Positions 2,458-32,973 of a stretch of 64,000 nucleotides of DNA are shown one piece after another (positions within the stretch are counted from its first letter, which is position 1; every line of letters starts with the position of its first letter). A program made the translations under genes and the position numbers. Where the stretch lies: positions 186,001 through 250,000 of the forward strand of contig JAQQAL010000011.1 in the NCBI GenBank assembly GCA_028532855.1. Reading direction: 5' to 3'. The stretch comes from Candidatus Thalassospirochaeta sargassi (GTDB lineage Bacteria > Spirochaetota > Spirochaetia > UBA9216). Below the pieces are notes generated by a model. The model saw only the letters and a program-made list of their open reading frames with translations, ran no database searches and was not told the origin of the DNA.

Positions 2458-2589
2458 TAATACGGGCTTTTCTTAGTATTACTTGCGTATTAGAAAAATC
2501 CGATAAATATAATTCTCAAAAGACTTCGGTTTTCCTTCGTGGGTATTATAATTATATTATCCTTTAGTCAATCAAATAGAGGAACAACA

Positions 2590-3669
2590 ATGACTCCAGT
2601 AACAAAACCATATTTACCTGATAGGGCAAAATTTATTAAATATGTTAATGATATTTTTGATAGAGAATATTTAACAAACAATGGGCCAAATGTCAGAGAG
2701 CTTGAGAATAAGCTCCAGGATTTTCTTGGTGTAAAAAATGTAATTCTAGTAGCGAATGGAACTCTTGCCCTGCAGATAGCCTATAAAGCTTTAGACCTCA
2801 GGGGCGAAGTTATTACAACTCCTTTCAGCTTTGCTGCAACAACAAGTTCATTGGTCTGGGAAAATTTAAAACCTGTTTTTTCTGATATTGATGAGAATAC
2901 ATTCAATCTCGATCCCGACAAAATTGAAGAAAAGATAACACCTGAGACTTCAGCAATTTTGCCTGTTCATGTTTATGGTAATCCTTGTGAGGTTGAGCAA
3001 ATTGAGGCTATTGCTGAAAGGCATAATCTAAAATTAATTTATGATGGAGCACATGCTTTTGGAGTAAAATATAAGGGTAAAAGTGTGCTTAATTACGGAA
3101 ATCTGAGCACTTTAAGTTTTCATGCAACAAAGTTGTTTCATACAATTGAAGGTGGAGCTGTAATTACGGAAGATGATGACTTGGCCCATCGTATACGGGC
3201 AATGATCAATTTTGGGTTAAATAATCAGGGGTCTTTTTCCAATATTGGAATTAATGCAAAAATGAATGAATTTGAAGCAGCTATGGGGCTTTGTGTGTTT
3301 GATGATATAGATAGTATTTTAGATCGACGAAAGGAGATTTGGCAAAGATATTATAAATCTTTAAATGATATTGTAACTTTTCAAACATTGCCTAATGAAG
3401 TGACTTATAATTACAGCTACGTACCTATCCTTTTTAAGGATGAAGAAACTCTTTATAAAGTTGTGGATAAGTTAAAAAAGCTCGAAATTTTTCCTCGCCG
3501 ATATTTTCATCCGAGCCTTGATAAGGTAGCTGTCTTTGGTGAGAACGGACAGTGTGAAAACTCTAGGGATATTTCAAAAAGAGTGCTTTGTTTGCCAACA
3601 TATTATACGATTAAAAACGAAGAGCAAAAAATGACTATAGATATGGTGAGGAACATTGATGAAACATAA
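2590..3669 (+). CDS. DegT/DnrJ/EryC1/StrS-family sugar aminotransferase
   Basis: 359 residues from ATG 2590, which has AGAGGA seven bases upstream; an in-frame ATG at 2539 would add 17 poorly fitting residues. It is a PLP enzyme of the nucleotide-sugar aminotransferase family: ANGTLAL (residues 55-61), YDGAHAFG (151-158) with the cofactor Asp152, and the Schiff-base Lys181 in FHATKLFHTIEGG. Members transfer an amino group to keto-deoxy sugars attached to dTDP or UDP. RfbA and RfbB at 18-20 kb supply dTDP-4-keto-6-deoxyglucose and no rhamnose genes follow them, so the product is plausibly a dTDP-amino-dideoxyhexose (inference). It heads the AT-rich run and overlaps the next gene by 11 bases. 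Confidence 0.88.
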   Translation: MTPVTKPYLPDRAKFIKYVNDIFDREYLTNNGPNVRELENKLQDFLGVKNVILVANGTLALQIAYKALDLRGEVITTPFSFAATTSSLVWENLKPVFSDIDENTFNLDPDKIEEKITPETSAILPVHVYGNPCEVEQIEAIAERHNLKLIYDGAHAFGVKYKGKSVLNYGNLSTLSFHATKLFHTIEGGAVITEDDDLAHRIRAMINFGLNNQGSFSNIGINAKMNEFEAAMGLCVFDDIDSILDRRKEIWQRYYKSLNDIVTFQTLPNEVTYNYSYVPILFKDEETLYKVVDKLKKLEIFPRRYFHPSLDKVAVFGENGQCENSRDISKRVLCLPTYYTIKNEEQKMTIDMVRNIDET

Positions 3670-4798
3670 TATTATTAATCCAAATTTTAATTTTATAAAT
3701 GAACCTATTGAATTTAACAAATTTTCTGATAGAAAAATATTACAGTATTGTTTGGGTGCTACCTTATATATGCCCGGTACAAAGCATGTTATTGACAAAA
3801 TTTTAAATAAAAAGCTTCTAGGTTTAACGTCAATGGTAATGTGTTTTGAGGATGCAATAAAAGAAGAAGATCTTAAAGCTGCTGAAAAAAATGTAATAAA
3901 GCATCTAGACACTTTATCTACTGCGATTGAAGCTGGCAATATCACACATAATGATATTCCTTTAACATTTTTGAGAGTTAGAAATACAGAACAATTCTGG
4001 CAATTTTCAAAAAAATTAAAAAAGGAGCATTGTGAAATTTTATCAGGATTTGTTTTTCCCAAATTCTATAGTAGTAATGGTAATGAATACTTTAGTTGTC
4101 TTTCTGAATTAATTTCAAAATTCAATATACAGTTATATGGAATGCCTATTTTAGAGGGGCGAGATGTTGCATTTAAAGAGACGAGATTAGAGGAATTAAT
4201 TAAATTAAGAGTTCTCATGTTACCGTTTAAAGAGCTTGTTCTTAATATTAGGGTCGGTGGGACTGATCTCTCTTCACTCTTCGGTGTTAGAAGAGGAATT
4301 AATTATTCTATATATGATATTTTAACTGTTAGAGATTGTCTATCGGATATTCTTAATGTTTTTAATCGAGTAAATGGTTATGTTGTATCTGCGCCGGTTT
4401 GGGAATACTTTTTAGCATATAAAAATGAAGATCTGGATCATTTGCTAAAAGATGATATACACAATTCATTGTTAAAAAGAAATCCCATTTTAAATGATGC
4501 CATTGATGGACTTTTACGTGAAGTTGTTCTTGATAAGGCAAATGGATTTATCGGCAAAACAATAATTCACCCTTCGCATGTAAAATATGTAAATGCTATG
4601 CAAGCTGTAACAAAAGAAGAGTGGGATGATGCTCAACAAATTATTAATACAAATGGTGGTGTGGTTAAAGGAACAAATAAAATGAATGAGATAAATCCGC
4701 ATAAAAATTGGGCAAAAAAAATTATAAATAGAGGAAAAGCCTTTGGAGTGATTGAAAATCAATCATCATACTTTAAATTGTTTTTTGAATCAAAATAA
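3659..4798 (+). CDS. CitE-like lyase/aldolase (HpcH/HpaI superfamily, TIM barrel)
   Basis: 379 residues. ATG 3659 is preferred over the TTG at 3656; GTGAGGA precedes it. The sequence matches the C-C bond lyase branch of the HpcH/HpaI-citrate lyase superfamily: LGATLYMPGTK near the N terminus, a conserved FEDAIK with acidic metal ligands, PILEGRD in the middle, LNIRVGGTDLSS, and the closing KTIIHPSHV. Relatives cleave or form beta-hydroxy acids, often as CoA esters. The substrate here is unknown. It lies in a tight run with hydratase, dehydratase and oxidoreductase genes, which suggests a dedicated small organic acid pathway inside the glycan locus. Confidence 0.8.
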   Translation: MKHNIINPNFNFINEPIEFNKFSDRKILQYCLGATLYMPGTKHVIDKILNKKLLGLTSMVMCFEDAIKEEDLKAAEKNVIKHLDTLSTAIEAGNITHNDIPLTFLRVRNTEQFWQFSKKLKKEHCEILSGFVFPKFYSSNGNEYFSCLSELISKFNIQLYGMPILEGRDVAFKETRLEELIKLRVLMLPFKELVLNIRVGGTDLSSLFGVRRGINYSIYDILTVRDCLSDILNVFNRVNGYVVSAPVWEYFLAYKNEDLDHLLKDDIHNSLLKRNPILNDAIDGLLREVVLDKANGFIGKTIIHPSHVKYVNAMQAVTKEEWDDAQQIINTNGGVVKGTNKMNEINPHKNWAKKIINRGKAFGVIENQSSYFKLFFESK

Positions 4799-4816
4799 TA
4801 TTTTTGGGAGTTAATA

Positions 4817-5326
4817 ATGCTGTATAATATTTCAACACCGATAAATAAAAAAATTAATGGAATTACTATTGGTGATAGAGTTGAAATTAGTGGAATCATA
4901 TATACGGCACGAGATGCCGTGATGCCGAAACTTGTTGAATTTATAAACGCTGAAAGGCTGGAAGAATTGTCGGTAAATTTATCCGGCTCTGCCATTATGC
5001 ATACGGCATTCAGTCCTGCTGGTTATGGTCCTACATCAAGTAATAAAGAAGAAATTGAAAGCACAATGGGAATATTGTCTAAAGCAGGCGTTAGATTCCA
5101 TTTAGGTAAGGGCGAAATCAAGCAGAATACAATTGATGAAATTTCAGAATTTGGATCTGTATTTATTGTTGTTCCTCCTGCATCTGCACTGTTGCAGAAT
5201 AGGTTAGTTTCAAAAAGGGTTGTTGCTTTTGAAGAAGAAGGGATGGAGGCACTTCATGAGTTAATTGTCAATCGTTTGCCGGGTGTTGTTGCCGCAGCAA
5301 ATGGCATGTCAATTTTTAATAGGTAA
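4817..5326 (+). CDS. Class I fumarase/L(+)-tartrate dehydratase-type hydro-lyase, beta subunit
   Basis: 169 residues, slightly shorter than the usual 185-200. It matches the C-terminal half of class I fumarases (TtdB-type): GDRVEISGIIYTARDAV (residues 19-35), TAFSPAGYGPTSS, LGKGEI and a GVVAAANGMS end. It pairs with the alpha subunit encoded next, and together they reversibly hydrate or dehydrate a dicarboxylic acid such as fumarate/malate, mesaconate/citramalate or tartrate. Here beta precedes alpha. GGGAG lies a few bases before the ATG. Confidence 0.87.
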   Translation: MLYNISTPINKKINGITIGDRVEISGIIYTARDAVMPKLVEFINAERLEELSVNLSGSAIMHTAFSPAGYGPTSSNKEEIESTMGILSKAGVRFHLGKGEIKQNTIDEISEFGSVFIVVPPASALLQNRLVSKRVVAFEEEGMEALHELIVNRLPGVVAAANGMSIFNR

Positions 5327-5342
5327 AAGCTAAGGATAATTT

Positions 5343-6209
5343 ATGATAGATATTACCAGAATAGAAGCAGCCTGCTCAGAAGCTGTATTGGCTGCAAGTA
5401 TTGGTTACGAACCGGCAAAAATAAAAGTTTGGGAAAAAGCAATAGAGACTGAGAGTGAAGAAAATTCCAGATGGATTTTAGAAATGCTACTTGAAAATGC
5501 TTATACAGCTAGGGAAAAGAGACTTCCTATGTGTGATGATACAGGTATTCCCTATGTACTTATTGAAATAGGTAGGGATGCTAAGATTAACGGAAATCCA
5601 GCAAAAATAATTGACGCTGCTGAAGCGGGGATTGCTGAAGGGTTGAGAAGATTGCCGGGACGACCGATGGCTGTGAAAGGCGATAGTTTTGATCGAATTA
5701 CTCAAGAAAAGGGCCTTTATGAAGATTCGGGAATGGTTTTCCCTTCTCCTGTAAGAATGAAATCTGTTTCTGGAAGTAAAATAAAAATTACTGTTTTATT
5801 GCAAGGAGGGGGTCCTGAGATAAGAGGTCGAACATATAGGGTTTTCCATCATCATAATCTTGATACTTTTAGAACTGAAATTGCTGGTTGGGCTGTTGAG
5901 ATGGCTCGCTTACTGGGTTGTACACCGTGTGTTCCTGCAATCGGTGTTGGAAGAACACACTATGAAGCGAATTGTCTCATGATGGATGCCATGGCATATG
6001 GTGTATTTGGTGAGCAGAATGATTTAGAAAAATTTATAACTGAAAAAGTGAATGAGAGTAATACCGGGCCGCTTGGTATCGGCGGTAAAATTACAGCTTT
6101 ACAAACCTTTTCAAGAATAGGTTATCAACGCGCCAGTGGTATCAGAGTTGTTAGTATGAGAGTTGGCTGTATAGTAGATCCCCGTAGACATTCTCTTATT
6201 CTGGAATAA
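5343..6209 (+). CDS. Class I fumarase/L(+)-tartrate dehydratase-type hydro-lyase, alpha subunit
   Basis: 288 residues, normal for a separate alpha subunit. Three cysteines sit where the [4Fe-4S] ligands are expected: Cys64 in MCDDTG, Cys193 or Cys196 in CTPC, and Cys277 near the end. QGGGPEIRG and the IGVGRTHYEA segment complete the family pattern. The cluster would bind and activate the hydroxyl group of a 2-hydroxy acid. Iron-sulphur hydro-lyases of this type are oxygen-labile, which fits an anaerobe or microaerophile. The gene follows the beta subunit by 16 bases. The true substrate cannot be read from sequence. Confidence 0.9.
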   Translation: MIDITRIEAACSEAVLAASIGYEPAKIKVWEKAIETESEENSRWILEMLLENAYTAREKRLPMCDDTGIPYVLIEIGRDAKINGNPAKIIDAAEAGIAEGLRRLPGRPMAVKGDSFDRITQEKGLYEDSGMVFPSPVRMKSVSGSKIKITVLLQGGGPEIRGRTYRVFHHHNLDTFRTEIAGWAVEMARLLGCTPCVPAIGVGRTHYEANCLMMDAMAYGVFGEQNDLEKFITEKVNESNTGPLGIGGKITALQTFSRIGYQRASGIRVVSMRVGCIVDPRRHSLILE

Positions 6210-6212
6210 TTA

Positions 6213-7562
6213 ATGAGTAATAACATTACCGATATTTTTATTGAAGATTTATTTGCTTTATCTAATTCGAATATCCCCACTGCAGTTTTACAAAAAGCAA
6301 AAAATTGTGTTTTAGATTATCTGGGCGTAACATTTGCAGGTGCAAAAATTCTACAGGAGAAAGGTAATAAGTATTTAGAGTTTCAGAATGATAATTCATC
6401 TATAGCTACAGTTATAGGCTTTAATAGAAAAGCAAGCATATTTAACAGCATCATTGTTAATGGTTTAAGTTCTCATGTCTTAGAACTCGATGACGGTGAT
6501 CGATATGCAATGTTACACCCAGGTGTTCCTGTGATATCAGCGCTTTTAGCCGTTGCCGAAGCAGAAAGAGTTGACAGCGATCTATTTTTAAAAGCTGTGG
6601 TTATTGGATATGAAGCCACTATTCGTATTGCTAGAGTCATGCAGCCTTCTTTGAAGTTGAATGGCTACCATGGTACCGGTGTCTGCGGTACTATTGGTGT
6701 GGCTATAGCTTGTGCCGCAGTTTTAGGTTTTACAATCGAAGAAATGAAAAATGCTTTATCAGCGGCAGCTACTGGCTCTGGAGGTTTACTCAAAGTTCTT
6801 GATAACGGTTCTGAATTAAAACCATTAAATGTGGCAAGAGCTGCTTTAAACGGATACATAGCTGCAAGTATAGCAAAAGCTAATATAAATGGACCAGATG
6901 ATGTCCTAGGCGGTAGCCGCGGCTTTTTATCTGTTTTTTCCAACAGAAATGACATCACTAAGCTGAAAAGAAATAATGATAGGTTTGCAATCGAGGATAT
7001 CTATATAAAACCCTATGCAGCCTGTCGTCATAGTCATTCAGCAGTTGAAGCTGTATTGAATATTAGAAAAGAACATCAACTGAACCTGAATGATATTAAA
7101 AATATTTTTGTTAGAACCTATAAGTTAGGTGTTGAAGGTCATGATCATATAGAAATTACTGATTCATCATCTGCAAAAATGAGCACGCCCTATAGTGTAG
7201 CTGCAGCTTTGGTTACCGGGAAATCTGGGATTTCTGAATTTCTTCCGGAACAGATAGAAAATCAAGAGATATTAAAATTGCTAAATATCATAGAAATAAA
7301 AACTGATGCTGAATTATCGCAATTGGTACCGAGGAAACGGCCAGCTATAGTAGAGATTCATCTACAGGATGGTTCGATATATTCAAACAGAGTTGATTTG
7401 CCAAAAGGCGAGCCAGAAAATCCAGTATTTCAAAATGAACTAATAGAAAAATTCTGCTCTTTAGCTTTATATGGCGGAAAAACCCAAGATGAAGCAGATA
7501 AAACAATTAAGATATTAATGGGACCAAAATTCATCCTTGAAGATTTATTTCTAGTATTATAA
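6213..7562 (+). CDS. MmgE/PrpD-family protein (2-methylcitrate dehydratase-like)
   Basis: 449 residues, the normal length for the family. The pattern is clear: VLDYLGVTFAG near the N terminus, SHVLELDDGDRYAMLHPG (about residues 89-106), a Gly-rich YHGTGVCGTIG and KPYAACRHSHSAVEA. Family members include 2-methylcitrate dehydratase and cis-aconitate decarboxylase, which act on tricarboxylic or substituted dicarboxylic acids. It starts three bases after the alpha subunit, so the two are almost certainly co-translated. It therefore probably acts on the same carbon skeleton, but no specific reaction is assigned. Confidence 0.85.
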   Translation: MSNNITDIFIEDLFALSNSNIPTAVLQKAKNCVLDYLGVTFAGAKILQEKGNKYLEFQNDNSSIATVIGFNRKASIFNSIIVNGLSSHVLELDDGDRYAMLHPGVPVISALLAVAEAERVDSDLFLKAVVIGYEATIRIARVMQPSLKLNGYHGTGVCGTIGVAIACAAVLGFTIEEMKNALSAAATGSGGLLKVLDNGSELKPLNVARAALNGYIAASIAKANINGPDDVLGGSRGFLSVFSNRNDITKLKRNNDRFAIEDIYIKPYAACRHSHSAVEAVLNIRKEHQLNLNDIKNIFVRTYKLGVEGHDHIEITDSSSAKMSTPYSVAAALVTGKSGISEFLPEQIENQEILKLLNIIEIKTDAELSQLVPRKRPAIVEIHLQDGSIYSNRVDLPKGEPENPVFQNELIEKFCSLALYGGKTQDEADKTIKILMGPKFILEDLFLVL

Positions 7563-7595
7563 ATATCAGTTTTTTTAAGCGGAGGTTATAGATTT

Positions 7596-8489
7596 ATGGA
7601 GAAGACAAGAGAATTTCTAAAAAAGATAGGTATGCCCGCAGGTGATGCTTATGATTTGCCTTCATCAGAAAAAAGGTTTCCTGATGGAGGTCAATACAGA
7701 TTTGAGGTTCCAGGGATTCAGGGCCCGGGGCCAATGAAGGCATTATTAGAAGAATTGGATTCATACAATATTACAATACATCGTGTTACTCAAACAAGGG
7801 GTATTATGATGCTGACTGATGAAGAAATATCTGAGATGGTAGCATTGGCAAAGAAATGGAATGTAGAGCTGGTGCTTGCTATTGGCCCACGTGCTACGAC
7901 TGATACCAGTGCTTCTGTTCAAACTCCTGAAGGCCAGCGGATGGGATACCGTCTTAGAGGACAGGAACAGGTTGTAAGGGCAGTAGAAGAAGTTAAAAGA
8001 GGGCTCTCGTTCGAATGTACCTCATTTCTAGTTTATGATGAAGGCTGTCTTTGGCTGTTAAATGAGATGATTAAAAACAATGAGTTGCCTGAAGAATGTA
8101 AATTTAAAGTTTCTGCTCATGCTGGGCATGGAAATCCCTGCTCTGCAAAATTGCTTGAATCAATAGGCGCAGGTTCATTCAATCCTGTAAGAGATATACA
8201 ATTACAGATGATGGCTGCAATACGACAGGCGGTTGATATTCCTCTGGATCTCCACACAGAAAATCCAGCCTCATCAGGAGGATTTATAAGGCATTATGAA
8301 GTTCCTGAAATGATACGAACCAGTGCTCCAATTTATCTAAAGACGGGCGGGTCGGTTGCAAAAAATCATAGTTGGGACTCAACTGCTAATGATGCCAAAG
8401 CAAGAGCAAAACAGGTGAAACTGGTTAAACGGGTTATTGATGCTTATTATCCTGACGCAGTGAGCTCTCCTAAACTCACTATCAAATAA
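7596..8489 (+). CDS. Uncharacterised TIM-barrel-like protein
   Basis: 297 residues that I do not recognise securely. GGAGG ends 12 bases before the ATG. The sequence has the rhythm of an alpha/beta barrel: ITIHRVTQTRG, VELVLAIGPRATTD, KFKVSAHAGHGNP, DIPLDLHTENPASSGG and APIYLKTGGS, with His, Asp and Glu at strand ends as in metal- or phosphate-binding barrels. Similar proteins are sometimes labelled U32 peptidase, but the U32 signature is not visible. Its position between a PrpD-type and an Ldh-type enzyme implies a step in the same acid pathway. It is the least explained member of the block. Confidence 0.6.
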   Translation: MEKTREFLKKIGMPAGDAYDLPSSEKRFPDGGQYRFEVPGIQGPGPMKALLEELDSYNITIHRVTQTRGIMMLTDEEISEMVALAKKWNVELVLAIGPRATTDTSASVQTPEGQRMGYRLRGQEQVVRAVEEVKRGLSFECTSFLVYDEGCLWLLNEMIKNNELPEECKFKVSAHAGHGNPCSAKLLESIGAGSFNPVRDIQLQMMAAIRQAVDIPLDLHTENPASSGGFIRHYEVPEMIRTSAPIYLKTGGSVAKNHSWDSTANDAKARAKQVKLVKRVIDAYYPDAVSSPKLTIK

Positions 8490-8497
8490 TTTCAAAA

Positions 8498-9550
8498 ATG
8501 GTTTTTGTTAAAGTCTCAGACGTAAAAAAAATCTCAGCACAAATCCTTATTAATAAAGGTGTTCCGGAGGATGATGCAATAATTATTGCAAACTCGATTA
8601 TTTTTGCACATCAGCGGGGAAAAGGAACCCATGGTCTGATCAGGCTGGCAAAGTATCTAAAAAAAATAGATGATAGATTGATGTCGCCAGCTCCTGAATA
8701 TAAAATAGTCAAGGACACACCTGCTGTTTGTCTGATTGATGCTGAGCATGGTTTTGGCCAGGTAGCTGCATCCAAAGGGATGATGCTTGGGATAGAAAAG
8801 GCAAAAAAACTCGGAATTAGCCTGGTTGGAATTAAGGATAGTAATAATTTCGGCACAGCCGGATTTTTTGCAGAGATGGCGGTAAAAGAAAATAAAATTG
8901 GAATAATTATGGGCAATTCCGGTCCTGCAATTGCACCATGGGGTGGCAGTAAGCCGTTATTGGGAACAAATCCAATAGGTTATGGTTTACCAGGCGGCTC
9001 AGCCGGTATTCCAATAATTATGGATATGGCTACTTCTGTTGCCGCCAGAGGCAAGATTCGTCTTGCTGCTAGAAATAATGAAACAATACCAGAGGGGTGG
9101 GCATTAGATCTTAATGGTAACCCGACTACAGACCCGACTGCCGCAATACTTGGTTCAATGATTCCGATAGGTGGACATAAAGGAGCAGGGTTATCTCTTG
9201 TTGTTGATATTCTGGCTGGAATGCTTACTGGTTCTGCTTTTGGTGGTGATGTAAAACCTCTTGCTGCAACGGATGGATTTTCTAAATATGGAAATATGAT
9301 AATAGTAATCAACCCTGAATTTTTTCTAACTCGTCAGGAGTACACTGAAAAGATTGATTATCTAATTAAGAATTTAAAAGAATGCGGAGAATCTGTATAT
9401 CTACCCGGTGAAAAATCATATTTGACAGCTATCGAAAATACGGAAGTGTTTGAAATTAGACAGGATTTGTTTGATGAAGTTAATGGGCTTGCTGAATCGT
9501 TGAAGATCAACATTAAACTTACACAAAAAACAAGAGAAGATTCGAGATAA
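8498..9550 (+). CDS. Ldh-family malate/L-lactate/ureidoglycolate-type dehydrogenase
   Basis: 350 residues, as usual for this NAD(P)-dependent family, which is unrelated to the classical Rossmann lactate dehydrogenases. Landmarks are the N-terminal helical domain ending in GKGTHGLIRLAKYL (normally SHG in the family, here THG), GFGQVAASKGM, NFGTAGFFAEMA and the cofactor-binding NPIGYGLPG. Members reduce 2-oxo acids or imino acids to 2-hydroxy or amino acids. Together with the hydro-lyase it could interconvert a 2-oxo and a 2-hydroxy acid used to decorate the glycan. It is eight bases after the previous gene and two before the next. Confidence 0.85.
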   Translation: MVFVKVSDVKKISAQILINKGVPEDDAIIIANSIIFAHQRGKGTHGLIRLAKYLKKIDDRLMSPAPEYKIVKDTPAVCLIDAEHGFGQVAASKGMMLGIEKAKKLGISLVGIKDSNNFGTAGFFAEMAVKENKIGIIMGNSGPAIAPWGGSKPLLGTNPIGYGLPGGSAGIPIIMDMATSVAARGKIRLAARNNETIPEGWALDLNGNPTTDPTAAILGSMIPIGGHKGAGLSLVVDILAGMLTGSAFGGDVKPLAATDGFSKYGNMIIVINPEFFLTRQEYTEKIDYLIKNLKECGESVYLPGEKSYLTAIENTEVFEIRQDLFDEVNGLAESLKINIKLTQKTREDSR

Positions 9551-9552
9551 AT

Positions 9553-10797
9553 ATGGAAAATAAACGTGTTGCTATAGTACTTGGTGGAACAAACCCCCAT
9601 ATAACGTTAATAGAAAATTTACAAGATAGAGGTTTTTATACTGTCCTTGTCGATTATTATGAAAATCCACCGGCAAAAAAAGTTGCTGATGAACATGTGC
9701 AAGACAGCACTCTTGATATGGATATCGTTCTTAAAATTGCTAGAGAATATAAAGCTGAACTAGTTATCAGCACATGTATCGATCAGGCAAATGTAACTGC
9801 ATGTTATGTTGCTGAAAAATTGGGATTGCCTGCACCTTACTCTTTCCAAACTTCACTGAATGTTTCAGATAAAGTATTAATGAAACAAATTATGTGGGAT
9901 AATAATTTACCTACTTCAAAATTCATTTGCATTGATGATGAGATAGAGCTGAATAATACTGATTTGGTATTTCCCGTTGTAGTAAAACCGGCGGATGCAA
10001 CTGGCTCAAAGGGTGTAAAAAGAGCAGATACACAGAGTGAACTCTCAAAATATATCAAATATGCACTTGAACTGAGTAGAAATAATAAAGTAGTTGTTGA
10101 AGAATTTTATACTGGGTATGAAGTTAGTGTTGATTGTTTTATTCAAGATTCAGTAGCACATGTAATAATGACGAGGCAAAAACTAAATTTTATTGATCAT
10201 AAAGGAGCTGCCATTCAGTGTTATGTATCAATCGCTCCGGCAAAGTTGTCTGAAATAGCTAAAAATAAAATAAAAAAAATTGCCCAGGGCATTGCTGATG
10301 CTTTTCACCTTGATACAACCTCTCTTTTACTACAGGTAATGGTCGATGGAGACAATGTAAATATAATTGAATTTGCTCCACGGGTTGGCGGGGGATTAAG
10401 CTATCAAACTGTAAAAAGAAATACAGGTTTTGATATTTTGAATGCAACAATTAATTCCTTTCTAAAGGTCAAAACCAAATTAGATTTTCAGCCGCCTAAA
10501 TATTTTTTAACAGCAAATAACATATATGCTGAACCTTGCGTCTATGGCTCTGTATCCGGCCATGAAGAATTAAAGCAAGATAACATTATAGAGGATTTTT
10601 ATTTTTATAAAACAAAAGGTATGAATATCAGTAGTGAAATGGCAAGTCGTGATAGAGCAGGATCATTTATTGTTAAAGCTGAAGATTACTCTAAATTGCT
10701 TGATAAAACTAAAACAGCTATTGAACGGCTGGAGGTTTATGATATTTATGGCGAAAGAAAGATGAGAAGAGATATCTTTTTGAAAGAGGAATTATAA
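9553..10797 (+). CDS. ATP-grasp carboxylate-amine ligase
   Basis: 414 residues with the ATP-grasp layout: an N-terminal alpha/beta domain (VAIVLGGTNPHITLI), the lysine-bearing FPVVVKPADATGSKGVK segment (about residues 139-155), VVVEEFYTGYEVSVD, and the metal-binding NIIEFAPRVGGG near residue 285. ATP-grasp enzymes activate a carboxylate as acyl phosphate and join it to an amine, hydroxyl or thiol. After five organic-acid genes and one amino-sugar aminotransferase, the natural guess is amide bonding of the acid to the amino sugar or to an amino acid. That is inference from context. It starts two bases after the Ldh gene. Confidence 0.82.
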   Translation: MENKRVAIVLGGTNPHITLIENLQDRGFYTVLVDYYENPPAKKVADEHVQDSTLDMDIVLKIAREYKAELVISTCIDQANVTACYVAEKLGLPAPYSFQTSLNVSDKVLMKQIMWDNNLPTSKFICIDDEIELNNTDLVFPVVVKPADATGSKGVKRADTQSELSKYIKYALELSRNNKVVVEEFYTGYEVSVDCFIQDSVAHVIMTRQKLNFIDHKGAAIQCYVSIAPAKLSEIAKNKIKKIAQGIADAFHLDTTSLLLQVMVDGDNVNIIEFAPRVGGGLSYQTVKRNTGFDILNATINSFLKVKTKLDFQPPKYFLTANNIYAEPCVYGSVSGHEELKQDNIIEDFYFYKTKGMNISSEMASRDRAGSFIVKAEDYSKLLDKTKTAIERLEVYDIYGERKMRRDIFLKEEL

Positions 10798-10803
10798 TTT
10801 ATT

Positions 10804-11520
10804 ATGGGAAATAATCATATTTCTGATAGTGCAAAAATAATTAATAGTAATATTGGTGAGTATAACAAAATATTTCATGATGTAGAGGTGAGGAATTCTA
10901 AAATTGGGGATTATGTCTCTTTGGGTGATCAAACAATTCTGTTGAACTGTGAATTTGACAGTAATATTGCGATTAATAGAAGGAATTTTATTCAACAGTC
11001 ACATATTGGTAAATTTACTTATACCGGTGTTGGCACTCAAATTCGCGGTGTAGAGATTGGTAATTTCTGTTCAATAAGCTGGTATGTTTCAATCGGTGGA
11101 AAAAATCATAATTATAACTATGTAACAAACAGTACAAGATGGGCATTTAAAAATATGTACGGTGGCCCCAAGGATACGAAGTTTATTTATGGAGAAGGTC
11201 ACGCTCCCTGCATTTTAGAAAATGATGTATGGATTGCTGCTAATGCAGTAATAATGCGTGGTGTTAAGTTAGGAAATGGTTGCGTTATTGGTGCAGGAGC
11301 AGTTGTCACTAAAGATGTTGAACCATACTCAATTGTCGCCGGATCACCAGCAAAAAAAATAAATCAAAGATTCGATGATAAAATAATTGATTCTCTGGAA
11401 AAAATCCAATGGTGGAACTGGGATAAAGATGTTATAAAAAACAATCTTGATTTAATATATTCATCTCAAGTGGATGGCTCCGTTATTGGAAAATTAGCAG
11501 AACTGTCGAAATCAATTTAA
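10804..11520 (+). CDS. Left-handed beta-helix acyltransferase (hexapeptide repeat, CatB/XAT-like)
   Basis: 238 residues dominated by hexapeptide repeats from residue 10 to about 190 (for example IGEYNKI, IGKFTYTGVG, IGNFCSI). The ending VWIAANAVIMRGVKLGNGCVIGAGAVVTKDVEPYS with the AGSPAK loop is typical of xenobiotic- and sugar-acetyltransferases using acetyl-CoA. The insertion SIGGKNHNYNYVTN carries the probable catalytic His. It probably O- or N-acylates a sugar of the glycan repeat. It is six bases after the ATP-grasp gene. Confidence 0.85.
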   Translation: MGNNHISDSAKIINSNIGEYNKIFHDVEVRNSKIGDYVSLGDQTILLNCEFDSNIAINRRNFIQQSHIGKFTYTGVGTQIRGVEIGNFCSISWYVSIGGKNHNYNYVTNSTRWAFKNMYGGPKDTKFIYGEGHAPCILENDVWIAANAVIMRGVKLGNGCVIGAGAVVTKDVEPYSIVAGSPAKKINQRFDDKIIDSLEKIQWWNWDKDVIKNNLDLIYSSQVDGSVIGKLAELSKSI

Positions 11521-11528
11521 TTATTTTT

Positions 11529-12971
11529 ATGAACGATTCTTTAAAGAAAAAAACTATGCGCGCTTTAATATGGAGCGGGCTAGAAAGATTTGGGTATCAG
11601 GGAATTAGAGCTCTAATTACTCTTGTTCTGGCTCGATTGTTAACACCAGATGATTTTGGAATAATCGGGATTTTACTAGTATTTATAATAATTGCTGAAG
11701 CAATTATCAATAACGGATTTGGACAGGCTGTAATCCAAAAAAAAGATATCTCAGAGGACGATTTAACAACTGCATTTTTGCTTTCTCTTGTGATGTCTAT
11801 TATATTATATTTTGTAATATATCTCGCATCTCCAACAATAGCTTTATTTTATGAAAGAACTGAACTTATTTCTTTTAATCGTGTTTTAGCATTAGTAATT
11901 GTTTTCGATTCTCTTGTTGTTATTCAACAAGCAAAATTTCAAAGAGAAATGGACTTTAAATCTTTATCATTGATAACAATTGTTTCATCTTTAATAAGTG
12001 GAATAATTGGAGTCATTCTCGCTTTTTTTGAGTTCGGAGTTTGGGCTCTTATTGCACAAATGCTGGGTCAAAAAATGATTATGGCTGCTTATTTATGGAT
12101 AAAATCTAACTGGGTTCCTAAGGGAAAATTAACGAAAGAATCACTACGGCATATGTTTAGTTATGGTTGGAAGTTACAAGTTTCAGGGGTATTATCTCAG
12201 TCATTTAGACATATTAACTCGTTAATAATCGGTAAAACTTTTTCTGTTGATCTGGTAGGATATTATACACAGGCAAAAAATTTAAAAGACTTACCGATGG
12301 TTACCTTATCAAGCATTATAAACAAAGTAGCTTTTCCGGTTTTTTCAAGTATTCAGGATGATAAAGACAGATTAAAAAAAGGATATAAAACAAGTATCAA
12401 AATGCTTGTTTTTATTTCATTTCCATTAATGATAGGTCTGGCGGCAACTGCTGAAAACCTCATTCCTGTTTTACTGGGGGAACAATGGGAACCATCAATT
12501 AAATTTTTTCAACTGCTTTGTTTTGCCGGAATGATTTATCCAATGCAAACATCGAATATAAATATTCTGAAGGTTACCGGTAGAACAGATCTTTATCTGA
12601 AATTGGAGCTTTTTAAGAAACTTGTCACAATTAGTGCCATCATCATCTCAATCAGATGGGGGATTTATGCATTAATCATAGCACAGGTTATTTCATCATA
12701 TATTAATTTAGGTATAAATGCCTCTTTCTCTGGAAAGCTGATAAATTATAGCCTAAGGGAACAGGTTGCTGATTGTATTCCATTTTTTGTAATGTCTTTG
12801 TTGATGGGGATAGTTGTATCTATTCTTGAAATGTTGTTAACCGATCTAGCACAAGTAATAGTATTACTTGTTCAGATTATTTCCGGAATGACTTTTTATT
12901 TTGTTTTATGCAAGATGTTCAGGGTTAAAGAAATAAGTATTTTATTAAACCTAATTAATAAAAAGGAGTAA
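11529..12971 (+). CDS. Polysaccharide flippase (MOP superfamily, WzxC-like)
   Basis: 480 residues with about 12-14 hydrophobic segments and the family opening KKKTMRALIWSGLERFGYQGIRALITLVLARLLTP. The VIQKKDISEDDLTTAF and FQREMDFKSLSLI segments are typical of the lipopolysaccharide-biosynthesis flippase branch. It would move lipid-linked repeat units across the inner membrane. It lies eight bases downstream of the acyltransferase and five before a glycosyltransferase. Its presence beside an EpsG/Wzy-like protein points to a Wzx/Wzy-dependent assembly route. Confidence 0.9.
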   Translation: MNDSLKKKTMRALIWSGLERFGYQGIRALITLVLARLLTPDDFGIIGILLVFIIIAEAIINNGFGQAVIQKKDISEDDLTTAFLLSLVMSIILYFVIYLASPTIALFYERTELISFNRVLALVIVFDSLVVIQQAKFQREMDFKSLSLITIVSSLISGIIGVILAFFEFGVWALIAQMLGQKMIMAAYLWIKSNWVPKGKLTKESLRHMFSYGWKLQVSGVLSQSFRHINSLIIGKTFSVDLVGYYTQAKNLKDLPMVTLSSIINKVAFPVFSSIQDDKDRLKKGYKTSIKMLVFISFPLMIGLAATAENLIPVLLGEQWEPSIKFFQLLCFAGMIYPMQTSNINILKVTGRTDLYLKLELFKKLVTISAIIISIRWGIYALIIAQVISSYINLGINASFSGKLINYSLREQVADCIPFFVMSLLMGIVVSILEMLLTDLAQVIVLLVQIISGMTFYFVLCKMFRVKEISILLNLINKKE

Positions 12972-12976
12972 ACTGA

Positions 12977-13993
12977 TTGAACACATTAAGATCAGAAGAA
13001 GAGATTGTCGATCATTGGAAAGGGGAAACCAGTAAGCCTTTAGTTTCTATTTCTTGTATAACTTATAATCATGAAGCATATATTGAAGATGCACTAATTG
13101 GATTTTTAAAACAGGAAACAGATTTTCCTTTTGAAATAATAATTCATGATGATGCGTCCACTGATCAAACAGCCGAAATAATCCGTAACTATGAAAAAAA
13201 ATATCCTAAAATAGTAAAGCCTGTATACCAAAAAGAAAATCAATATTCACAAGGGAATAGACCAACCCAATTTATTAAGCATTTAAGAACTGGTAAATAT
13301 ATAGCCTATTGTGAAGGTGATGATTACTGGATTAGCTCAAAGAAACTTCAATTGCAAATAGAATATATGGAGAATAATCCAGAGTGCAGCATGTGTTGCC
13401 ATTCAGCTTACAAAGTAAATAGTGAAAAAAAAATAATTGGAAGTATCAGACCTGCAAAGCAAAATAGCGTATTTCGAATAGAAGATGTAATAAACGGAGG
13501 TGGTGGCTTTATTGCTACTAATTCTAGAGTGGTTCGGAAAGAATATACAGAATCTTTGCCTGCATATTATTTTACTGCTCCTGTTGGAGATTTTCCATCT
13601 CAAATTCATATGGCTCTACGTGGAAAGATTTATTATTTTGATGAGTGTTTTTCTGCTTATCGTATTATGGTAAAAGGATCCTGGACAGAGAGATTCAATT
13701 TTGATTTAAATTATAAGCGAGATTACTACAAAAAAATTGTTAAAACTTTAGAAGAAGTAAATAAATATACTAATTTTAAATATAGCGATGTGATTACTAA
13801 AGCAATTAATTATCGATCATTAAATCTATTTCTTCTCGAAAATGGATATAATAACCGAAAAAAAAATAGTGTTTATCGTTCATTAAAATTAAAAAAGAAA
13901 GTTGTTTTATTTCTAAAATATGGATTAAATAAAAAATTGCTTAAATTTTTATTAAAACTGAAATCAAACGGAATTTTTTATCTATCAAAATAA
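12977..13993 (+). CDS. Glycosyltransferase family 2
   Basis: 338 residues starting at TTG 12977, with AAGGAG centred about ten bases upstream. The GT-A core is clear: VSISCITYNHEAYIEDALIGFL, IIIHDDASTDQT and YCEGDDYW, where the acidic residues bind metal and nucleotide sugar. The C-terminal 80 residues are very Lys-rich and may contact membrane. The donor cannot be predicted. It overlaps the next gene by one base, so translation is probably coupled. Confidence 0.87.
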   Translation: MNTLRSEEEIVDHWKGETSKPLVSISCITYNHEAYIEDALIGFLKQETDFPFEIIIHDDASTDQTAEIIRNYEKKYPKIVKPVYQKENQYSQGNRPTQFIKHLRTGKYIAYCEGDDYWISSKKLQLQIEYMENNPECSMCCHSAYKVNSEKKIIGSIRPAKQNSVFRIEDVINGGGGFIATNSRVVRKEYTESLPAYYFTAPVGDFPSQIHMALRGKIYYFDECFSAYRIMVKGSWTERFNFDLNYKRDYYKKIVKTLEEVNKYTNFKYSDVITKAINYRSLNLFLLENGYNNRKKNSVYRSLKLKKKVVLFLKYGLNKKLLKFLLKLKSNGIFYLSK

Positions 13994-15021
13994 TGCAATA
14001 TTTATTTTATTTTTTATATGCAGGAATATTACCTCTTTCATTAATCAAACGTGATCGAAATGCCAGAGAACTTTACATTGTTTCTGCATGGATATTTATT
14101 GTTTTTTCAATTTTTTTATTCAGTACTAACACTACAGGTACTGACTACCTAAATTACAAATATATTTTTAATAGCATACCTATAATAACTTCATTTTCTA
14201 TGAAAGGTCACACTGAATTAGGGTTTCAACTATTAATCTCAATTGTAAAAACTTTTGGTCTTGGATATACACAATTCTTATTTATATTTCAAAGTATTCT
14301 AGCTTTTTTAATAATTAAATCATATAAACAGGTGACTCCGTATTGGATTCTTGCCCTATGGTTATATTTCCCTAAATATGTAATGCAGGGGCACCTTAAT
14401 CAAATAAGAATTGTAGTTGTATATGCTACAATGATATTTGCAATCCCTTTGATTAAAAACAATAAACTATTTTTATATATTAGAAATGCAATAGTATCTG
14501 CTTTTTTCCATATTAGTGGAGTTATAATAATTCCTGTATATCTATATTTCAAATCTAAATCAGATAGAAAAATAAGTATTCTACTTGTTTTAATTTCAAT
14601 GGTTTTAGGACAATTAATATTTATTGTGTTATTTCGCATTGCGTCCTCATATAGTATCAGAGGAGCGAAATATATTTTGGATGGTGCTGGAGAAACCAGT
14701 TCATTTAGTTTAACTGTAATTAGGCGTATGATTTTATTCTGTTATGGATTACTAATTTATCCATATGCAAAAAGAAATCAACCTTATTTTAATGTTATTT
14801 GGAACATTTTTGTTGCCTCGGTTTGTTTTTATTTTATGTTTATGAAGATGCCGATTTTAGCTGAAAGAATCGGGGCAATCTTTTCAGTTGTAGAACCTTT
14901 AATAATAATTAGTGTGATTTATGTCTTGAAACCAGAAAGTAGAATTTGGGGTTATTTATTTATTTTGTTTTATGGTTTATCAGATGTAATTCTAAGAGGG
15001 TTATTACCATATAGCTTATAA
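13993..15021 (+). CDS. EpsG/Wzy-like polysaccharide polymerase
   Basis: 342 residues with about ten hydrophobic segments. The N-terminal FSTNTTGTDYLNYKYIF (about residues 38-54) and the following HTELGFQLL correspond to the GxDxxxY and E-x-G-F/Y pattern of the EpsG family, which polymerises repeat units at the outer face of the inner membrane. FPKYVMQGHLNQIRIVV also matches the family. A Wzy role fits the flippase two genes upstream. Confidence 0.8.
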   Translation: MQYLFYFLYAGILPLSLIKRDRNARELYIVSAWIFIVFSIFLFSTNTTGTDYLNYKYIFNSIPIITSFSMKGHTELGFQLLISIVKTFGLGYTQFLFIFQSILAFLIIKSYKQVTPYWILALWLYFPKYVMQGHLNQIRIVVVYATMIFAIPLIKNNKLFLYIRNAIVSAFFHISGVIIIPVYLYFKSKSDRKISILLVLISMVLGQLIFIVLFRIASSYSIRGAKYILDGAGETSSFSLTVIRRMILFCYGLLIYPYAKRNQPYFNVIWNIFVASVCFYFMFMKMPILAERIGAIFSVVEPLIIISVIYVLKPESRIWGYLFILFYGLSDVILRGLLPYSL

Positions 15022-15045: not shown

Positions 15046-15489
15046 ATGAGTAAAAAATTGAAAATAGGTTATACCACAGGTGTATTTGATATGTTCCATA
15101 TCGGGCATCTAAATATTTTAAGGAATGCAAAATTAGAATGTGATTATCTTATTGTGGGAATAACTTCTGATGAGTTAAGTAAATCAGAAAAAAATGTCGA
15201 GCCAATAATTCCATTTAATGAACGAATGGCAATTGTTGAAAGTATTAAATATGTGGATATGGTTGTTCCTCAAACCTCATATGACAAAATAGCCGCCTGG
15301 AATGATTTAAGATTTAATATTATGTTTGTCGGTGACGACTGGAAAGGAACGCCAAAGTGGAAAAAGCTTGAAAAAGAGTTTTCAGAATTAGGTGTAAGAA
15401 TCCATTATTTCCAATATACAAAACATACATCTAGTACTAAATTACGAAAAGTTGTTGATGACATTTTATCAGTAAAGTCCAAGGAGTAA
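15046..15489 (+). CDS. Cytidylyltransferase-like nucleotidyltransferase (TagD type)
   Basis: 147 residues, the size of glycerol-3-phosphate cytidylyltransferase. It has GVFDMFHIGHLN (residues 12-23) with the HxGH nucleotide-binding motif, FVGDDWKGTP, and HTSSTKLR, the counterpart of the RTxGISTT motif. It would activate a phosphorylated alcohol as a CDP derivative. The next gene, two bases later, encodes a CDP-alcohol transferase, so the pair probably makes and transfers a phospho-alcohol. The alcohol (glycerol, ethanolamine or another polyol) is not resolved. AGGGAG lies eight bases before the ATG. Confidence 0.85.
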   Translation: MSKKLKIGYTTGVFDMFHIGHLNILRNAKLECDYLIVGITSDELSKSEKNVEPIIPFNERMAIVESIKYVDMVVPQTSYDKIAAWNDLRFNIMFVGDDWKGTPKWKKLEKEFSELGVRIHYFQYTKHTSSTKLRKVVDDILSVKSKE

Positions 15490-15491
15490 TC

Positions 15492-16202
15492 ATGGCTGAA
15501 AAAAAGAAAAGCACCGGCCTTCCATATACTATGTATATTAATAGGAATTTAGCTAGATTCGTAACCAAGCGTAGTATCCATTTAACACCTAATCAGATTA
15601 CGGTAATAGGATTTATAATTTTATTAATTGGATTAATATTATTGCCGTTTACAGCAAATACCTTATTAGTTTTAATTTCATATTTATTATTGGCATTTAG
15701 TTATGTTTTAGATTCTGTTGACGGGCAGCTTGCGAGAGTTAGAAATATGTGTTCCCCGTTTGGTGAGTGGCTTGATCATTCTTTAGACGGACTTAGGATG
15801 ATCTTACTTCAACTCACATTCTTAATAGTTTTACTGAAAACTTCACCGAATGATAATATAATATTAATAATACTTGGATTCAGTCTAAACATAATTGCAA
15901 TTACATCAAATTATTTTTTTTCAATTTTAAAACAATTAATTTTAAAACAGAAATCAGGAGATCTAATTAAAGGAAATAGCCTGAAAAGTATTCTAAGCAA
16001 GATTCTTTTAACTCCTGCTGATTATGGAATTTATATAATGTCTGTACTTTTTCTTATTAATACAAATAATTTTCTTAAATTATACATTTTATACGGAATC
16101 TACTATAGTTTAATTTTTATATCCAATTTTATTGTAACAGTGTCACAGAACTTAAAATTATTGAGATTAAACACCACAGACGAGAGCAGAGATGCAGAAT
16201 AA
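15492..16202 (+). CDS. CDP-alcohol phosphatidyltransferase family protein
   Basis: 236 residues with about six membrane segments. The diagnostic motif DG-x2-AR-x8-G-x3-D-x3-D is complete: SVDGQLARVRNMCSPFGEWLDHSLDG (about residues 77-102, split here by function: metal-binding Asp residues and the final catalytic Asp). These enzymes displace CMP from a CDP-alcohol. Inside a glycan locus and behind a cytidylyltransferase, it probably makes a polar-lipid or sugar acceptor carrying a phospho-alcohol rather than an ordinary phospholipid. It overlaps the next gene by 11 bases. Confidence 0.87.
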   Translation: MAEKKKSTGLPYTMYINRNLARFVTKRSIHLTPNQITVIGFIILLIGLILLPFTANTLLVLISYLLLAFSYVLDSVDGQLARVRNMCSPFGEWLDHSLDGLRMILLQLTFLIVLLKTSPNDNIILIILGFSLNIIAITSNYFFSILKQLILKQKSGDLIKGNSLKSILSKILLTPADYGIYIMSVLFLINTNNFLKLYILYGIYYSLIFISNFIVTVSQNLKLLRLNTTDESRDAE

Positions 16203-18034: not shown

Positions 18035-18901
18035 ATGAAAGGAATAATTTTAGCCGGTGGTGCCGGAACAAGACTTTACCCGGCAACTGCCGTTGTTTGT
18101 AAACAGCTTCTACCTGTCTATGATAAGCCGATGATTTATTATCCGCTTTCGACCCTGATGCTTGCAGGTATTAAAGATATCCTTATTATATCTACTCCGC
18201 AGGATACTCCGAGGTTTGACGATTTGTTGGGAACCGGACAGGATCTAGGTATAAATATCAACTATAAAGTTCAGGAGGCTCCAAACGGCCTTGCTGAAGC
18301 CTTTATTATAGGTGAAGAGTTTATTGGAGATGATTCAGTTTGCCTTATACTTGGAGATAATATCTTCTATGGCGAACACCTGTCAAAACTCTTATGGAAA
18401 GCAATGGCCCAGGAGAGTGGTGCAACAATATTCGGATATTTAGTGAATGATCCGGAAAGATACGGTATTGTTAAATTTGATGAAAATGGAAAGGCAATCT
18501 CAATAGAAGAAAAACCTGAAAATCCAAAATCTAATTATGCCATTGTTGGGCTCTATTTCTATGACAACAGAGTTGTTGATATTGCGAAGAAGATTGAGCC
18601 TTCTGCGCGCGGAGAACTTGAGATTACGACAGTGAATAATGAGTATCTAAAATTAGATGATATAAAAGTCCAGTTGATGGGTCGCGGTTATGCCTGGTTG
18701 GATACAGGAACACATGATTCTCTTGTAGATGCCGCAAACTACGTTCGAACTATAGAAGAGCGACAAGGGTTAAAAATTGCCTGTATTGAAGAAATTGCGT
18801 ATCGACGAGGGTTCATTCCAAGAGAGCAATTGATTTCTCTTGCTGAGAGAATGAAAAACCCTAGCTATAAAGAATATTTATTAAGTGTTGGAGAAGAGTA
18901 A
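18035..18901 (+). CDS. rfbA: Glucose-1-phosphate thymidylyltransferase
   Basis: 288 residues, exactly the RfbA length. It opens with [16 protein letters not shown], the nucleotide-binding loop, followed by [28 protein letters not shown] and [10 protein letters not shown]. It makes dTDP-glucose from glucose-1-phosphate and dTTP, the entry to dTDP-deoxysugars. GGAG precedes the ATG. The rhamnose genes rfbC and rfbD are absent from the window, so the product pathway is probably directed to another deoxysugar. Confidence 0.97.
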
Positions 18902-18903
18902 GA

Positions 18904-19974
18904 ATGAGAAACCTCACAAACATACTAATCACCGGTGGAGCCGGATTCATCGGTTCAAACCTTGTACGTTACATCTTTGAAAAGACTGATTTCAGCGGTA
19001 AAATCGTAAATCTTGATGTGCTTACCTATGCCGGCAACCCTTATAGTCTTGATGATATAGATAAAGAGTTTGGAGAAAGCAGGTATTTTTTTGAAAAAGC
19101 AGATATTCGCGACAGGGTAGCTGTCGACGGGTTTCTGACTAAATATAATATCGATACAGTAATCCATCTTGCTGCTGAAAGCCATGTTGATCGTTCTATT
19201 ACTGGTCCTGAAGAGTTTATTACGACTAATATAAATGGTACTTTTACTCTTCTTGAAGCTGTACGTGCATTCTGGACAGATTTTGAGGGAAAGCTATTTC
19301 ATCATGTTTCTACTGATGAGGTTTACGGTAGCCTTGGAGATGAGGGCTTCTTCACCGAAGAGACCCCTTATGATCCTCGAAGTCCATATTCAGCAGCCAA
19401 GTCAGCGTCTGATCACCTTGTTCGTGCATATTTTCATACTTATGGAATGCCGATCACCCTTTCAAACTGTTCAAATAACTACGGCCCCTATCAGTTTCCT
19501 GAAAAGCTTATTCCTGTCATGATTGAGAACATGCTTGAGGAAAAACCGCTTCCGATCTACGGCGACGGTAAAAACATCCGCGACTGGCTCTATGTCGAAG
19601 ATCATAATTCAGCAGTATGGACTATCGTTAACGATGGGGAAACCGGCCGTTCATACAACATCGGTGGTGAAAATGAATGGGAAAATATTAAACTTGTTCA
19701 TAACCTTTGTGAAATAGTTGCTGACGAAACAGGTAAAGAAAAAAACTATTATAAAAAGCTAATAACCTATGTAAAAGATAGACCGGGCCATGATAGGCGT
19801 TATGCAATTGATTGTGACAGGTTGAAAAGAGAACTTGGTTGGAAGCAGTCGGTCACTTTTAATGAGGGTTTAAGGCAAACGGTCAAATGGTATCTTACAA
19901 ATCGAACATGGATAGAACAAGTAAAATCCGGTGAATATCTAAAGTGGATAGAAAAGAATTATAATGATAGATGA
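18904..19974 (+). CDS. rfbB: dTDP-glucose 4,6-dehydratase
   Basis: 356 residues, normal length. NAD-binding GGAGFIGSN (residues 10-18), HLAAESHVDRSI, HVSTDEVYG and the catalytic YSAAK (Tyr-x3-Lys), with NNYGPYQFPEKLIP and DWLYVEDH, are all characteristic of RfbB. It converts dTDP-glucose to dTDP-4-keto-6-deoxyglucose. It starts two bases after rfbA. The keto sugar is the expected substrate of the aminotransferase at 2590 (inference). It is the last gene of the tight + strand glycan run. Confidence 0.97.
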   Translation: MRNLTNILITGGAGFIGSNLVRYIFEKTDFSGKIVNLDVLTYAGNPYSLDDIDKEFGESRYFFEKADIRDRVAVDGFLTKYNIDTVIHLAAESHVDRSITGPEEFITTNINGTFTLLEAVRAFWTDFEGKLFHHVSTDEVYGSLGDEGFFTEETPYDPRSPYSAAKSASDHLVRAYFHTYGMPITLSNCSNNYGPYQFPEKLIPVMIENMLEEKPLPIYGDGKNIRDWLYVEDHNSAVWTIVNDGETGRSYNIGGENEWENIKLVHNLCEIVADETGKEKNYYKKLITYVKDRPGHDRRYAIDCDRLKRELGWKQSVTFNEGLRQTVKWYLTNRTWIEQVKSGEYLKWIEKNYNDR

Positions 19975-21887: not shown

Positions 21888-21921
21888 ATAATCACCTGGA
21901 AAAAGAGAAAATAAATGAAAA
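21888..21921. repeat. 34-bp direct repeat, copy 2
   Basis: Perfect copy of 21217-21250. It ends seven bases into the outer-membrane protein gene at 21915 and supplies that gene's start codon, so both host genes remain whole after the insertion. Confidence 0.95.
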
Positions 21922-31678: not shown

Positions 31679-31707
31679 TTGCTGATAAAAGCCAATATTG
31701 GTATTAT
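31679..31707 (+). promoter_or_regulatory. Candidate promoter of the lipoprotein-murA operon
   Basis: TTGCTG (31679-31684), a 17-base spacer and TATTAT (31702-31707). The ATG at 31715 follows after seven bases and no ribosome binding site is seen, suggesting a leaderless transcript. Confidence 0.45.
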
Positions 31708-31714
31708 AAATCAG

Positions 31715-32959: not shown

Positions 32960-32973
32960 ATTAGGAGACCGAT

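Follow-up and report, generated by a model that had tools for sequence, protein, structure and literature searches.

A 64,000-nucleotide stretch of DNA from Candidatus Thalassospirochaeta sargassi (contig JAQQAL010000011.1, positions 186,001 to 250,000; the whole stretch is called the window below) contains a compact block of organic acid genes that ends in an ATP-grasp ligase and lies within a glycan locus (2590-10797). The reading favored here, to which we would give a probability of roughly 60%, is that this block is a horizontally mobile cassette whose enzymes produce an organic acid and attach it to an amino sugar within a surface glycan. On a broader reading, whose odds seem about even, a new U32-like TIM-barrel enzyme underlies a widely shared glycan acid system: a single conserved trunk would feed plug-in modules, and with these and their matching ligases the attached acid would change in stereochemistry or length from strain to strain. 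The genes of the block are as follows.

2590-3669, + strand: aminotransferase of the DegT family, DesI-like (PF01041, 323 bits; ATG start within the open reading frame 2539-3669)
3656-4798, + strand: C-C bond lyase resembling CitE and malyl-CoA lyase (PF15617; likely start at the ATG at 3659)
4817-5326, + strand: beta subunit of an Fe-S hydro-lyase, fumarase C-terminal type (PF05683, 72 bits)
5343-6209, + strand: alpha subunit of the Fe-S hydro-lyase (PF05681, 165 bits)
6213-7562, + strand: MmgE/PrpD protein (PF03972 and PF19305)
7596-8489, + strand: U32-like TIM-barrel protein of 297 aa, the family marker (AlphaFold2 model and fold search)
8498-9550, + strand: Ldh_2 NAD(P)-dependent 2-hydroxyacid dehydrogenase, serving as branch module here (PF02615, 349 bits)
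9553-10797, + strand: ATP-grasp ligase, predicted to form amides (PF13535, PF18603)

All eight open reading frames (ORFs) are on the + strand and are separated by gaps of 2-33 bases or overlap slightly; the ORFs, Pfam identities and spacing bear out the gene calls and tight packing described in an earlier note on this DNA. The block runs unbroken into genes for a hexapeptide acyltransferase, a Wzx-like flippase, a family 2 glycosyltransferase (GT2) and an EpsG-family polymerase, and RmlA and RmlB are encoded further downstream. A scan for promoters and terminators 5' of the block gave no signal above chance.

Distribution and glycan context

The TIM-barrel protein is the most conserved and slowest-evolving member of the cassette and its best family marker. 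A genome scan with this protein returned 405 relatives, and the best 80 loci, chosen by similarity of the TIM-barrel protein (73-80% identity), were fetched. Judged by record title, the hosts include Clostridia and other Firmicutes, Bacteroidales, Spirochaetes, Fibrobacter and Verrucomicrobia, and extend to Victivallales, Desulfobacter, Omnitrophota and Coriobacteriia. Within 10 kb of the TIM-barrel gene, a PrpD protein is encoded in 74 of the 80 loci, the CitE-like lyase in 73, and the beta and alpha subunits of the hydro-lyase in 69 and 68, respectively. Since the same partners recur in most of these best loci, the gene set is not a product of chance. The earlier note had singled out a seven-gene set; its core does recur in 80 genomes, but the exact set is just one version of a larger family, and the Ldh-type oxidoreductase counted within it is one of three alternative modules.

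There is also a clear tendency for the cassette to lie among glycan genes. Two or more such genes were found in 45 of the 56 loci longer than 15 kb and in none of 20 control windows, a contrast that is indicative rather than exact because TIM-barrel similarity determined which loci were used, these same cassette loci supplied the glycan-gene profiles, and all 20 controls came from the window's own contig and hence from one genome. The long loci support the glycan context proposed in the earlier note, which had named a block found mostly in catabolic loci without glycan genes as the refuting outcome. The aminotransferase and RmlAB do not lie nearby in every locus. Of four further genomes in the window's genus, one has a relative, at 51% identity. 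Such patchy presence fits horizontal spread, and the cassette appears to be horizontally mobile across phyla, in many unrelated gut and sediment bacteria.

Branch modules and co-segregation

Three alternative modules accompany the cassette: Ldh_2, a D-2-hydroxyacid dehydrogenase, or a phosphonopyruvate-decarboxylase-like enzyme (Ppd), the last nearly always together with an aldo/keto reductase. The modules are mutually exclusive in nearly all loci; in 76 labelled rows, the decarboxylase-like enzyme was assigned 40 times, the D-2-hydroxyacid dehydrogenase 26 times and Ldh_2 8 times (including the window), and both dehydrogenases were present twice. Locus L069 has all of a glycan cassette but lacks each of these modules; a fourth kind may exist there.

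The members of the cassette differ sharply in how they track these modules. At least 21 module changes are required on the TIM-barrel tree. In trees built for one common set of 40 loci, the TIM-barrel protein and the alpha and beta subunits of the hydro-lyase require 13 changes each, against a shuffled mean of about 15.6-15.7, whereas the CitE-like lyase requires 5 and PrpD 6, below all 200 shuffles (minima 13 and 12, respectively). The ligase tree, which covers 33 loci, requires 9 changes compared to a shuffle minimum of 10. Among pairs of loci with TIM-barrel identity of at least 85%, identity between the CitE-like lyases is 82% when the module type is the same and 58% when it differs. Two natural swaps make the same point. 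Loci L077 and L097 are nearly identical in the TIM-barrel protein (97%), GT2 (93%) and acyltransferase (92%), but the reductase is Ldh_2 in one and the D-2-hydroxyacid dehydrogenase in the other, and their ligases are only 35% identical. Loci L067 and L085 share 97% identity in the TIM-barrel protein and 88% in Wzx; their modules differ, and identity is 30% for the ligase and 28% for PrpD.

The CitE-like lyase, PrpD and the ligase follow the branch module, then, and the TIM-barrel protein and hydro-lyase are exchanged freely among types. Linkage alone does not explain this pattern, because in many operons the TIM-barrel gene lies between those for PrpD and the CitE-like lyase. From the co-segregation we infer a shared trunk (TIM barrel and hydro-lyase) that feeds a variable branch (module, CitE-like lyase, PrpD and ligase).

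The ligase and its predicted acceptor

The nearest Protein Data Bank (PDB) relatives of the ATP-grasp ligase are 4dim and the L-amino acid ligase 3vot. For the aminotransferase, the best NCBIfam model is DesI (308 bits, under the cut-off of 650), and the nearest PDB entry is 2po3, an entry for DesI. Ligases of the window type co-occur with DesI-type aminotransferases, with Fisher p values, uncorrected for phylogeny, of 0.0005-0.0007 at the two stricter of three ligase-similarity thresholds and 0.027 at the loosest. No member of the RmlC family was found in the window's genome, and the combination of RmlA, RmlB and a DesI-like aminotransferase without RmlC makes a dTDP-4-amino-4,6-dideoxy sugar the natural product. 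Judging from these sequences, the acceptor is predicted to be dTDP-4-amino-4,6-dideoxyglucose. Qui4N residues with N-linked hydroxy acids are known, as are L- and D-malyl amides on other amino sugars (PMC3210612). The earlier suggestion that an acid is joined to an amino sugar thus gains from the glycan context, the pairing of the ligase with DesI-type aminotransferases and the presence of RmlA and RmlB without RmlC, while the nature of the acid, its amide linkage and the acceptor stand as predictions.

Alternatively, the ligase may couple its acid to an amino acid or some other amine, not to a nucleotide sugar. L-amino acid ligases are, after all, among its nearest solved relatives, and many loci have no sugar aminotransferase nearby, but the co-occurrence just described argues the other way, and we hold this alternative to be unlikely. 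As a separate observation, an unannotated protein of about 320 aa (cluster c26) adjoins ATP-grasp genes in L040, L043, L075, L085 and L089; the L040 member has no Pfam match.

Candidate enzymes of trunk and branch

The TIM-barrel protein matches no Pfam or NCBIfam family, and PDB sequence searches gave no matches or chance ones. Its AlphaFold2 model is nonetheless a TIM barrel (pLDDT 88), in keeping with the "TIM-barrel-like" label of the earlier note, and its closest folds are class II fructose/tagatose-bisphosphate aldolases, the U32 protein Mk0906 and 2-methylisocitrate lyase, at TM values near 0.5. The U32 peptidase family PF01136 is not matched by the window protein and is weakly matched by a 35%-identical relative; relatives are labelled U32 peptidase in two plasmid records. 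None was found in phages. Two loci deserve separate mention. On an Enterobacter plasmid (L103, 10901-22505), a 35% relative lies in an apparent natural-product cluster with a kinase, a D-hydroxyacid dehydrogenase, an aminotransferase and two heme-oxygenase-like proteins, and in L030 (6625-13422) PrpD is encoded between two TIM-barrel copies, together with a hydro-lyase and two dehydrogenases, without a CitE-like lyase or ligase and outside any glycan context.

In the alpha subunit of the hydro-lyase, C64, C193 and C276 are invariant in the alignment and are candidate cluster cysteines; these three residues, with the PF05681 and PF05683 subunits, fit a class I two-subunit fumarase/tartrate dehydratase. 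The CitE-like lyase belongs to PF15617 (C-C_Bond_Lyase; 374 bits against a gathering score of 28.4), and its AlphaFold2 model is closest to CitE, CLYBL and malyl-CoA lyase. A PDB profile ranking gave IRG1 and IDS-epimerase as the nearest solved relatives of the PrpD protein, whose sequence places it on the IRG1, IDS-epimerase and cis-aconitate decarboxylase side of the MmgE/PrpD family. Several named functions were considered and set aside: fumarase or tartrate dehydratase for the hydro-lyase (110 bits against a cut-off of 276, 77 against 238), 2-methylcitrate dehydratase for PrpD (41 bits against an NCBIfam equivalog cut-off of 575), and L-sulfolactate dehydrogenase for Ldh_2, which is its nearest curated family yet scores 320 bits against a cut-off of 500.

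Replacements within the cassette give some indication of the chemistry. In L036, the place of the CitE-like lyase is taken by an HMGL-like (DRE-TIM) enzyme; the hydro-lyase is replaced in L059, L082 and L047 by a Lyase_1 enzyme (nearest to carboxymuconate cycloisomerase) and a PF04199 cyclase-family hydrolase. These substitutes fit C-C bond chemistry and net hydration or dehydration of a polycarboxylate, though they do not fix the substrate. Loci L083, L089 and L091 have neither a CitE-like lyase nor a recognizable substitute.

The same enzymes could be arranged as a linear, methylcitrate-like route, in which the CitE-like lyase would condense two acids, PrpD would dehydrate and the hydro-lyase rehydrate the product, and the TIM-barrel protein would cleave it, like isocitrate lyase, to a 2-keto acid that the branch module reduces. 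Indeed, the four activities parallel those of the methylcitrate cycle, the fold matches include 2-methylisocitrate lyase, and both kinds of substitute are compatible with it, lactonization followed by lactone opening (Lyase_1 plus hydrolase) being equivalent to hydration. The co-segregation result makes this order less likely: the two enzymes that would act before the shared steps, the CitE-like lyase and PrpD, are the ones that track the branch type, and the supposed later steps do not. PrpD is, moreover, closer to IRG1 and IDS-epimerase than to 2-methylcitrate dehydratase, and on balance the linear route seems improbable.

A proposed pathway and its difficulties

In the cassette reading, the trunk (Fe-S hydro-lyase and aldolase-like TIM barrel) would convert a starting compound, probably a di- or tricarboxylate, to one common 2-keto acid. 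At the window locus, Ldh_2 would then reduce this keto acid to a 2-hydroxy acid of one hand; elsewhere the D-2-hydroxyacid dehydrogenase would give the opposite hand, and the third module would decarboxylate the keto acid and reduce the resulting aldehyde to a primary alcohol. The CitE-like lyase (through C-C bond chemistry that may involve an acyl-CoA) and the PrpD protein (through dehydration, decarboxylation or epimerization) would help to complete the branch-specific acid. The ATP-grasp ligase is envisaged to activate the carboxylate as an acyl phosphate and to join the acyl group to the 4-amino group of dTDP-4-amino-4,6-dideoxyglucose, itself presumably supplied by RmlA, RmlB and the DesI-like aminotransferase. 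Glycosyltransferases would build in the decorated sugar, Wzx would flip the product, and the EpsG-type protein would polymerize it.

Several points weigh against this scheme. The CitE-like lyase resembles CoA-dependent enzymes, yet the cassette has no CoA-activating gene. A DegT homolog lies near the cassette in only 40 of the 80 loci, and RmlA and RmlB do so in a minority. The TIM-barrel tree is weakly resolved, though the hydro-lyase trees agree with it, and the co-segregation, on which the order of trunk before branch is based, could also mean that trunk and branch make two separate halves. Finally, about seven copies of the decarboxylase type lack the ligase and have a TRAP or CitMHS transporter (the TRAP permease is ORF cluster c24, in six loci; CitMHS is in L072), with LysR genes alongside. 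These ligase-free relatives are perhaps catabolic, and the core may serve uptake or catabolism; given their organic acid transporters, the core does not belong to glycan systems alone.

A catabolic organic acid operon, placed in a glycan locus by accident, is a further reading of the block. The transporters and LysR regulators beside the ligase-free copies point in that direction, as does L011 (347-9776), where a more distant TIM-barrel protein (49%) and PrpD (35%) lie near a class V aminotransferase, 5-oxoprolinase-type genes and a TRAP transporter in what is a probable catabolic cousin. That said, the block in the window has no transporter within it, the association with glycan genes, ligase and aminotransferase is strong, and in L077/L097 the ligase is exchanged along with the reductase, so this explanation is quite doubtful. 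A pathway centered on phosphonopyruvate or sulfopyruvate and yielding a phosphonate or sulfonate decoration is very improbable: although the decarboxylase module of relatives exceeds the NCBIfam equivalog cut-off for phosphonopyruvate decarboxylase (401-421 bits against 312.5) and Ldh_2 is nearest to L-sulfolactate dehydrogenase, the latter match is below cut-off as noted, phosphoenolpyruvate (PEP) mutase is absent from 18 of the 22 cassette genomes, the window's included, two more have no more than a sub-cut-off match, and the cassette decarboxylases form a separate group that has TTGR-ATRE rather than TTGK-SRE and lacks the C-terminal LGRP motif of PEP-mutase-linked homologs.

Neighboring genes in the window

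The genes that continue the locus downstream of the block are these.

10804-11520, + strand: hexapeptide (left-handed beta-helix) acyltransferase, an optional partner (PF00132)
11529-12971, + strand: Wzx-like flippase (PF13440, 322 bits)
12977-13993, + strand: GT2 glycosyltransferase (PF00535)
13993-15021, + strand: EpsG-family, Wzy-like polymerase (PF14897)
18035-18901, + strand: RmlA nucleotidyltransferase for dTDP-glucose (PF00483, 249 bits)
18904-19974, + strand: RmlB dTDP-glucose 4,6-dehydratase (PF16363, 314 bits)

The closest PDB entries to the acyltransferase are the CatB/Vat xenobiotic acetyltransferases, and a homolog lies close to the cassette in 13 loci. Also within the glycan locus, a glycerol-3-phosphate-cytidylyltransferase-like protein adjoins a CDP-alcohol phosphatidyltransferase (15046-16202), which suggests an additional phospho-alcohol substituent. 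Directly past the glycan genes, an AbiEii protein (type IV toxin-antitoxin) is preceded by a small ORF (25747-27228), possibly an AbiEi/AbiEii pair. A 489-aa ORF at 21915-23384 has no Pfam match, nor does the first of two adjoining 426-aa ORFs at 31679-34254.

Comparison with known systems

No description of the gene set was found in openly licensed literature, and it is apparently a widespread, modular and previously undescribed acid-decoration cassette. If this is correct, a protein family labelled merely as U32 peptidase in two plasmid records acquires a role, a rule readable from genomes would predict which acids decorate the glycans of many bacteria of gut and rumen, and L077/L097 and L067/L085 would be natural pairs for studying glycan change through joint exchange of reductase and ligase. 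Glycobiology may not have met this acid before.

The cassette overlaps with several known systems without coinciding with any of them. The Ter stress operon, which pairs a PF15617 C-C bond lyase with a PF15632 ATP-grasp protein, has a lyase in the same Pfam family as the CitE-like lyase, and a plasmid copy next to a phosphoribosyltransferase gene is 53% identical to it; the cassette, however, has no phosphoribosyltransferase or Ter proteins, and its ATP-grasp enzyme is only weakly related. One branch module is a close homolog of phosphonopyruvate decarboxylase, as in 2-aminoethylphosphonate decoration, but most cassette genomes lack PEP mutase and the decarboxylase sequences form their own group. 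With the 2-methylcitrate cycle the cassette shares a condensing or lyase enzyme, a PrpD-type protein, a hydratase and a TIM-barrel lyase, yet it has no clear PrpC, PrpB or aconitase ortholog, its PrpD is under the curated cut-off and nearest to IRG1, and it sits among glycan genes with a ligase.

Other parallels are found among glycans. Anthrose is a 4-amino-4,6-dideoxy sugar carrying a hydroxy acid on N-4, and the acyl groups of anthrose and Qui4N are thought to be derived from the CoA thioesters of ordinary metabolism. In Vibrio cholerae O1, the rfbKLMNO genes serve the N-acylation of perosamine with 3-deoxy-L-glycero-tetronate. The predicted product of the cassette resembles the Qui4N decorations of Shewanella MR-4, in which a hydroxy acid is likewise borne on N-4 of a 4-amino-4,6-dideoxy sugar (PMC3210612). 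What the cassette would add, compared with anthrose and Qui4N, is a set of several enzymes devoted to making the acid, together with an ATP-grasp ligase. In dedicating genes of an O-antigen-type locus to a small hydroxy acid amide-linked to a 4-amino sugar, it would resemble the perosamine system of V. cholerae O1; but where rfbKLMNO use an acyl carrier, an acyl ligase and dehydrogenases, the cassette has an Fe-S hydro-lyase, PrpD, a CitE-like lyase, a TIM barrel and an ATP-grasp ligase.

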